Source of the DNA: Crocinitomicaceae bacterium
Lineage (GTDB): Bacteria > Bacteroidota > Bacteroidia > Flavobacteriales_D > Crocinitomicaceae
Direction: 5' to 3'
DNA: 54,057 nucleotides
Assembly (NCBI GenBank): GCA_020832365.1
Contig: JAFIEX010000002.1
Coordinates: 1-54,057, forward strand
Below the pieces are notes generated by a model. It did no database searches. It was not told where the DNA came from and saw only the letters and a list, made by a program, of their open reading frames with translations. This document shows, in pieces, positions 18,937-19,201 of this stretch (positions are counted from its first letter, which is position 1; each line of letters starts with the position of its first letter). Position numbers and translations under genes: made by a program.

Positions 18937-18963
18937 AAAGCGGCTATCAGCCGCTTTTTTTTT
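18937..18963 (+). terminator. Rho-independent terminator of the porE-like gene
   Basis: AAAGCGGCT and AGCCGCTTT form a perfect 9-bp stem with a 3-base loop and continue into nine T in total, 12 bases after the stop. Confidence 0.93.
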
Positions 18964-18981
18964 AAAAAAATTTAAAGATGT

Positions 18982-19012
18982 TTGGTGAAAAGAAAAAGCT
19001 GTAATATATTTG
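18982..19012 (+). promoter_or_regulatory. complete promoter of a short transcription unit
   Basis: TTG at 18982-18984 and TATATTTG at 19005-19012 are separated by 20 bases, the best -33/-7 pair in the window. The element CACAAA-gttT-TTTGTG that follows (19013-19027) is a small palindrome at the expected start of transcription. Confidence 0.6.
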
Positions 19013-19018
19013 CACAAA

Positions 19019-19107
19019 GTTTTTGTGGTTGAGACTTTTGGGTTTTATAGTTTAACATGGTTTAGAAAAGAATGGACAAGTGTAATGCATTTGTCCATTC
19101 TTTTTTT
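19019..19107 (+). ncRNA. candidate small RNA (or terminated leader) between porE and aspS
   Basis: An about 90-base unit lies between a good promoter (18982-19012) and a strong terminator hairpin (GAATGGACAA / TTGTCCATTC, then seven T). It has no plausible open frame: the one ATG near the middle meets a stop after one further sense codon. It does not show the GGAA tetraloop of SRP RNA or the pairing of tmRNA or RNase P. aspS has its own promoter downstream, so the unit looks independent rather than a simple leader. The exact start is estimated from the -7 position. No known RNA family is recognised. Confidence 0.4.
19068..19107 (+). terminator. terminator ending the short transcription unit
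   Basis: GAATGGACAA (19070-19079) pairs with TTGTCCATTC (19091-19100), with an 11-base loop and then seven T. It lies 110 bases before the aspS start codon, so it does not belong to a neighbouring coding gene. Confidence 0.85.
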
Positions 19108-19175: not shown

Positions 19176-19201
19176 TTGAATATTCCTTATTTATATTTTT
19201 G
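19176..19201 (+). promoter_or_regulatory. promoter of aspS
   Basis: TTG at 19176-19178 and TATTTTTG at 19194-19201 (perfect -7) are separated by 15 bases, a little short. The ATG is 17 bases downstream of the -7 element. Confidence 0.45.

Follow-up and report, generated by a model that had tools for sequence, protein, structure and literature searches.

The window, as the whole 54 057-nt stretch of Crocinitomicaceae bacterium DNA analysed here is called, carries a short predicted transcription unit on its forward strand between two protein genes. The upstream gene encodes a protein with TPR, PD40 and OmpA domains, and is called porE here after the initial annotation; the downstream gene encodes aspartyl-tRNA synthetase domains (aspS). 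The porE terminator detected by scanning (18937-18957, plus strand) would insulate the unit. Beyond it, on the same strand, lies a promoter of Bacteroidota type, composed of a -33 element (TTTG, 18981-18984) and, at a spacing of 20 nt, a -7 element TATATTTG (19005-19012) of the TAnnTTTG type, which is also found 5' of the core in relatives. The predicted small RNA of about 92 nt spans 19016-19107 on the plus strand, with a 5' end deduced from the promoter, and the prediction is backed by its fold and by a match to the covariance model R1 (see below). It would start with a hairpin of 8 pairs and a 7-nt loop (19016-19038), weak in this copy and of a structure strongly conserved across its relatives, followed by an exposed linker GGGTTTTATAGTTTAACATGGTTT (19040-19063), a variant of the family consensus GGGTTTTATAGTTTTAGCATGGTTTAGC, and by an intrinsic terminator with a 20-pair stem and then U's (19064-19107, hairpin at 19064-19106), which was detected by scanning and shows compensatory changes in relatives. 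A promoter-like sequence TATTTTTG, read by eye at 19194-19201 on the plus strand, precedes the ATG of aspS (19218) and is consistent with separate transcription of this gene. The initial annotation had described a promoter, about 90 non-coding bases, a strong terminator and an aspS promoter beyond them, and this arrangement was confirmed at 18981-19107, with about 92 bases for the RNA.

Taken individually, the signals of the unit were not exceptional. The pattern TTTG-N19-21-TAnnTTTG had four exact matches in the window compared to 2.39 expected, and four or more were found in 22 of 100 shuffles; the promoter taken by itself could thus be due to chance. In the same way, the terminator scan of the window yielded 15 terminators compared to 12.3 expected from shuffles. 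The 93 nt from position 19016 folded with -28.6 kcal/mol (z -5.57), a value reached by none of 200 shuffles, but nearly all of this score was contributed by the terminator hairpin at 19064-19106. The 5' hairpin of the window copy was not significant alone (z -1.3, with 12 of 100 shuffles as good). As promoter and terminator are each near chance, it is homology that lifts the observation above it.

When 59 relatives were searched at the DNA level, the same stretch was matched in several genomes of the same family, with a best E value of 2.4e-11 outside its own genome. The loci that were read shared one architecture, consisting of a TAnnTTTG box, a hairpin, the conserved GGGTTTTATAGTTTTAGCATGGTTTAGC and a terminator. 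The box was located by regular expression 25-38 nt 5' of the core in 17 of 19 sequences, and was likewise present upstream in L018 and L020. The initial annotation had asked for a covariance search, which was carried out with a model (R1) built from 19 sequences. R1 matched the window copy at 19008-19104 (E 5.8e-13) and, within Crocinitomicaceae, 151 of 200 genomes at E ≤ 0.01, covering 21 of 24 genera and leaving 49 genomes without a match. In a sample of the order, 71 of 249 genomes were matched, only one of them outside Crocinitomicaceae; this match (G227) corresponded to the 3' end of an aspS gene plus its terminator and was discarded as a homologue. In a sample of the class, 15 of 296 genomes were matched, of which seven belong to the family and eight, all with E ≥ 6.5e-5, do not; these eight matches were ordinary gene ends with terminators and had no linker, so that the class sample contained no credible R1 match beyond Crocinitomicaceae.

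A pattern made from the linker only retrieved 75 stretches from the genome_contigs collection (84,980 species), of which 71 were judged by eye to be such units, a few of them cut by contig ends, and four were not (L096, L123, L126 and L129). The linker pattern by itself is thus nearly specific for these units. Named carriers were Brumimicrobium, Fluviicola, Lishizhenia, Taishania and Crocinitomicaceae bacterium, and it is by such names that the family was recognised as Crocinitomicaceae. Five records (L080, L095, L106, L107 and L114) bear the titles Chryseobacterium gleum, Chitinophaga pinensis, Glaciecola amylolytica or Candidatus Kuenenia; both the small RNA and its neighbours match Crocinitomicaceae in them, and the records are probably mislabelled. 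Copy number was determined in 14 genomes, in a search where many candidates were scored: seven had one copy per genome, and two to four copies were found only in the seven genomes of genus g9. Some of the multi-copy counts of the R1 survey were partly artefacts of the palindromic terminators, as in G026, where five copies were reduced to one on recount. In L292 (C8) a tandem duplication of about 459 nt was observed that includes a gene end and its terminator. Overall, the unit very probably represents a real small-RNA family of Crocinitomicaceae, which appears to be undescribed so far.

For the structure of the family, 82 copies were used in which a -7 box and a T-run could be recognised; copies that lacked a recognised box or were truncated at a contig end were left out. 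Once identical RNAs had been removed, 74 members remained. The segment from the start to the linker had a mean z of -3.44 over the 74 members, and 65 of these were within the best 5 of 100 shuffles. All 74 members had a 5' hairpin of 6-14 pairs. Their 5' arms came in 61 versions, and each position of the stem was occupied by several pair types, up to six, showing that pairing is kept while the stem sequence changes. Double compensatory changes were detected at 10 of the 18 pairs of the terminator stem.

In the linker it was the sequence that was kept. Its identity reached 0.90 over 24 nt compared to 0.41 for the hairpin and 0.40 upstream, a value that is inflated because the members were gathered by a pattern on that same linker; divergent members vary in the linker yet keep much of it. 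The mean unpaired probability of the linker was 0.755 compared to 0.378 for the whole RNA (family means), and its exposed consensus is GGGUUUUAUAGUUUUAGCAUGGUUUAGC. The linker is about 28 nt long in the family and one U shorter in the window copy. The hairpin loop UUUCAUAG was present as TTCATAG in 41 of the 74 members. The window copy is divergent, without the UUUCAUAG loop and with a shortened linker and a weak hairpin. In the paralogues of genus g9 the loop UUCAUAGUUGUAG was kept and the linker varied; some g9 copies lie in tandem 184-285 nt apart (G109:C656, about 240 nt; G080:C3; G008:C63), and these share the UUCAUAGUUGUAG loop, their linkers having diverged. Peptide coding was ruled out by the absence of a long ORF, as closed ORFs had a median of 5.5 and a maximum of 20 codons per RNA and no reading frame was kept.

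The gene neighbourhood was tabulated for 79 loci, 73 of them with an upstream gene and 75 with a downstream gene. The upstream gene encoded a metal importer in 42 of the 73 loci (25 ZIP transporters and 17 ABC-3 permeases), on the same strand as the small RNA and about 100 nt away; both domains were confirmed by Pfam in one representative each. A DUF5723 gene lay downstream in 39 of the 75 loci, following the ZIP arrangement in 22 loci and the ABC arrangement in 7, so the importer type differs at what is apparently one locus. A palindrome GTTAGATTTGTCTAAC, or a near variant, covers the -7 box of the ZIP gene in L073, L074, L081, L084, L092, L105 and L128, and resembles an operator of the DtxR/MntR type; inspection by eye did not reveal such a palindrome over the small-RNA promoters. 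In L090 and other loci with an ABC-3 pair, one permease is fused to the C-terminal metal-binding domain of iron-dependent repressors (PF02742). L076 and L091 carry an apparently decayed ZIP gene, of which only a C-terminal remnant is left, beside a small RNA that is intact. The tie to metal uptake is suggestive only, a possible lead to the role of the RNA rather than a demonstration of it.

Counting strand, 20 types of downstream and 18 types of upstream neighbour were found, and the downstream gene was on the opposite strand in 17 of the 75 loci, which is not the fixed same-strand position of a cis-acting leader or riboswitch. The unit has what is expected of a trans-acting small RNA, namely its own promoter and terminator, no conserved ORF and a position untied to one gene. 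The porE/aspS neighbourhood was seen in the window and in no other of the 79 loci. This observation, with the downstream genes on the opposite strand, excludes the aspS leader that the initial annotation had named as the alternative, and the stand-alone small RNA that it preferred is supported by the promoter, hairpin, linker and terminator predicted family-wide in varied neighbourhoods. It had also left open whether a position between T9SS genes was coincidence or regulatory; as porE/aspS is private to the window genome, coincidence held and the regulatory link to T9SS was dropped.

Several searches were made for targets and partners. The complement of a 17-mer of the linker, with up to two mismatches, had 24 non-self sites in 10 genomes compared to 35 for the reversed control, and two further searches for extended complementary sites likewise gave no excess over controls; a search for CTA(n)CAACTATGAA returned mostly self matches plus scattered sites. 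No long antisense target stood out above the reversed control. Against 236 start regions the linker showed no enrichment (49 of 100 shuffles as good). The loop region paired with these better than 99 of 100 shuffles, in a set that contains many orthologues of one neighbour gene and where any CAU-bearing sequence gains from start codons; this pairing is a hint only. In an 8-mer test the loop matched AUGAAA starts, and CU before AUG was not clearly start-specific (11 of 100 ATGAAA starts vs. 168 of 1970 in all DNA). The adjacent metal and DUF5723 mRNAs gave no signal as targets, with median ranks of 23 and 17.5 among 50 shuffles. Regarding proteins, the window genome has a gene for an RRM protein (L291, C82:6587-6796, open frame of 137 aa), which may correspond to the RbpB-type RNA-binding proteins of Bacteroides, and no match to Hfq was found in this genome.

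The above results are best explained by a regulatory small RNA that is about 92 nt long, stands alone, acts in trans and belongs to a Crocinitomicaceae-wide family, a reading to which we assign a probability of roughly 0.6, with base pairing as its likeliest mechanism. The RNA would be transcribed by the primary sigma factor and act post-transcriptionally, with the linker, and in most relatives also the loop UUUCAUAG, contacting short sites in several mRNAs. Such sites would probably lie near start codons, and translation of these mRNAs would be lowered. Assistance by the RRM protein may be proposed because Hfq was not found in the window genome. The terminator would insulate the small RNA from the next gene.

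Binding of the linker by a protein is the main rival to base pairing. The RNA would then be a decoy or a cofactor, whose linker, with three GUUUA-like repeats, binds an RRM or cold-shock protein that is titrated or guided by it. The repeats (GUUUUA, GUUUUA and GUUUA) are seen directly in a linker that is kept both in sequence and single-stranded, the window genome does encode an RRM protein, and both the lack of excess complementarity between linker and start regions and that of any long antisense site agree with such a role. However, many base-pairing seeds are equally conserved, and the g9 paralogues, with their varying linkers and constant UUCAUAGUUGUAG loop, fit two base-pairing seeds better, so that protein binding as the function of the linker appears rather unlikely.

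The same-strand ZIP or ABC-3 genes in 42 of 73 loci and the DUF5723 genes in 39 of 75 could suggest that the unit acts in cis, as a leader or attenuator of the gene that follows, or that it is a 3' end processed from the mRNA of the upstream metal importer. Against this rival are the diversity of neighbours and the opposite downstream genes described above, the promoter box of the unit itself, its persistence beside the apparently decayed ZIP genes of L076 and L091 and, in the window, a preceding terminator with no metal gene adjoining, which make it very improbable. The small size, plain promoter, usually single copy and family-wide presence would also suit a disguised form of SRP, 6S, tmRNA or RNase P RNA, or a relative of these housekeeping RNAs. 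The initial annotation had recognised no features of these four RNAs, which was borne out: their Rfam models had no match in the window at gathering or permissive thresholds, and no tmRNA was detected there by ARAGORN. Moreover, no Rfam family reached its gathering score in the window, permissive Rfam scans of the window stretch and of members gave nothing credible, the variable sequence of the 5' stem fits none of the four RNAs as they are known, and no credible match was found beyond one bacterial family in the order and class samples, so that a housekeeping RNA is hardly tenable. Lastly, the near-chance counts of promoters and terminators in the window would allow a chance pair of both signals or a functionless remnant of a mobile element, but the covarying hairpin and conserved linker in 21 genera already refute this reading; copy number, single in 7 of 14 genomes and two to four only in the seven g9 genomes, also speaks against it.

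To our knowledge, post-transcriptional control in Bacteroidota is almost unmapped beyond Bacteroides and a few pathogens. A small RNA kept in at least 21 genera of a widespread aquatic family, with an exposed linker so conserved that it suffices to identify the unit, offers a strong entry to targets and RNA-binding partners in the apparent absence of Hfq, and the covariance model R1 can be used directly for annotation. Should the frequent metal-importer genes upstream have a functional meaning, the unit would provide the phylum with a small-RNA circuit linked to metals that is open to testing.

Three groups of known small RNAs may be compared with the Crocinitomicaceae family. RyhB-type small RNAs are metal small RNAs, and the frequent metal-importer neighbourhood, with its possible tie to metal supply, is the likeness to them; as a difference, the DtxR/MntR-like palindrome that covers the ZIP -7 box was not noticed over the small-RNA promoter on inspection by eye. 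The Rfp small RNAs of Flavobacterium psychrophilum are also independent RNAs in Flavobacteriales, and they regulate mRNAs; however, Rfp18, conserved in its genus, is set apart by the at least three stem-loops described for it (PMC9723704), and the class sample outside Crocinitomicaceae gave only gene terminators.

FopS/GibS of Bacteroides (RF04319) are the third group. Their seed opens with UUUCAUAGUnnUAG, they bind the RRM protein RbpB, and susC start regions are blocked by them (PMC11697453). Homology to FopS was suggestive but not significant. The RF04319 model does match Bacteroides loci, and at permissive settings it had no match in the window stretch or in L012, L013, L014, L021, L078, L084, L116 and L117. 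With regard to the R1' seed sequence at the FopS 5' end, TTTCATAGTnnTAG is common to many relatives and absent from the window copy, and the mean alignment score was equalled by 12 of 200 shuffles. In a pattern scan of the phylum, promoter-borne TTTCATAGTnnTAG was found only in Bacteroidaceae-like genomes, and the remaining matches resembled coding strands or start-codon complements.

The Crocinitomicaceae and FopS/GibS groups (PMC11697453) are both short RNAs that start directly after a TAnnTTTG promoter, expose a 5' segment and end in a terminator. Both occur as paralogues in certain genera, and in both a U-rich seed, putative in the Crocinitomicaceae RNAs, contains UUUCAUAGUnnUAG and is complementary to the start-codon context CUAUGAAA; the window genome, like the Bacteroides system, encodes an RRM protein, with Hfq not found there. 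In contrast, the putative seed of the Crocinitomicaceae RNAs lies in a hairpin loop, an extra conserved linker is present, and there are 1-4 copies instead of about 14 (PMC11697453). A bolder proposal, which we put forward as a speculation and consider distinctly unlikely, is that both groups branched from one strategy specific to Bacteroidota or arrived at it by convergence. A promoter-proximal UUUCAUAG seed would mask the start and lysine codons (CUAUGAAA) of mRNAs for secreted and envelope proteins, in the Crocinitomicaceae this seed would be combined with a second, invariant linker and coupled to metal uptake by genome position, and an RRM-assisted, start-codon-masking network would take the place of Hfq networks in this phylum.
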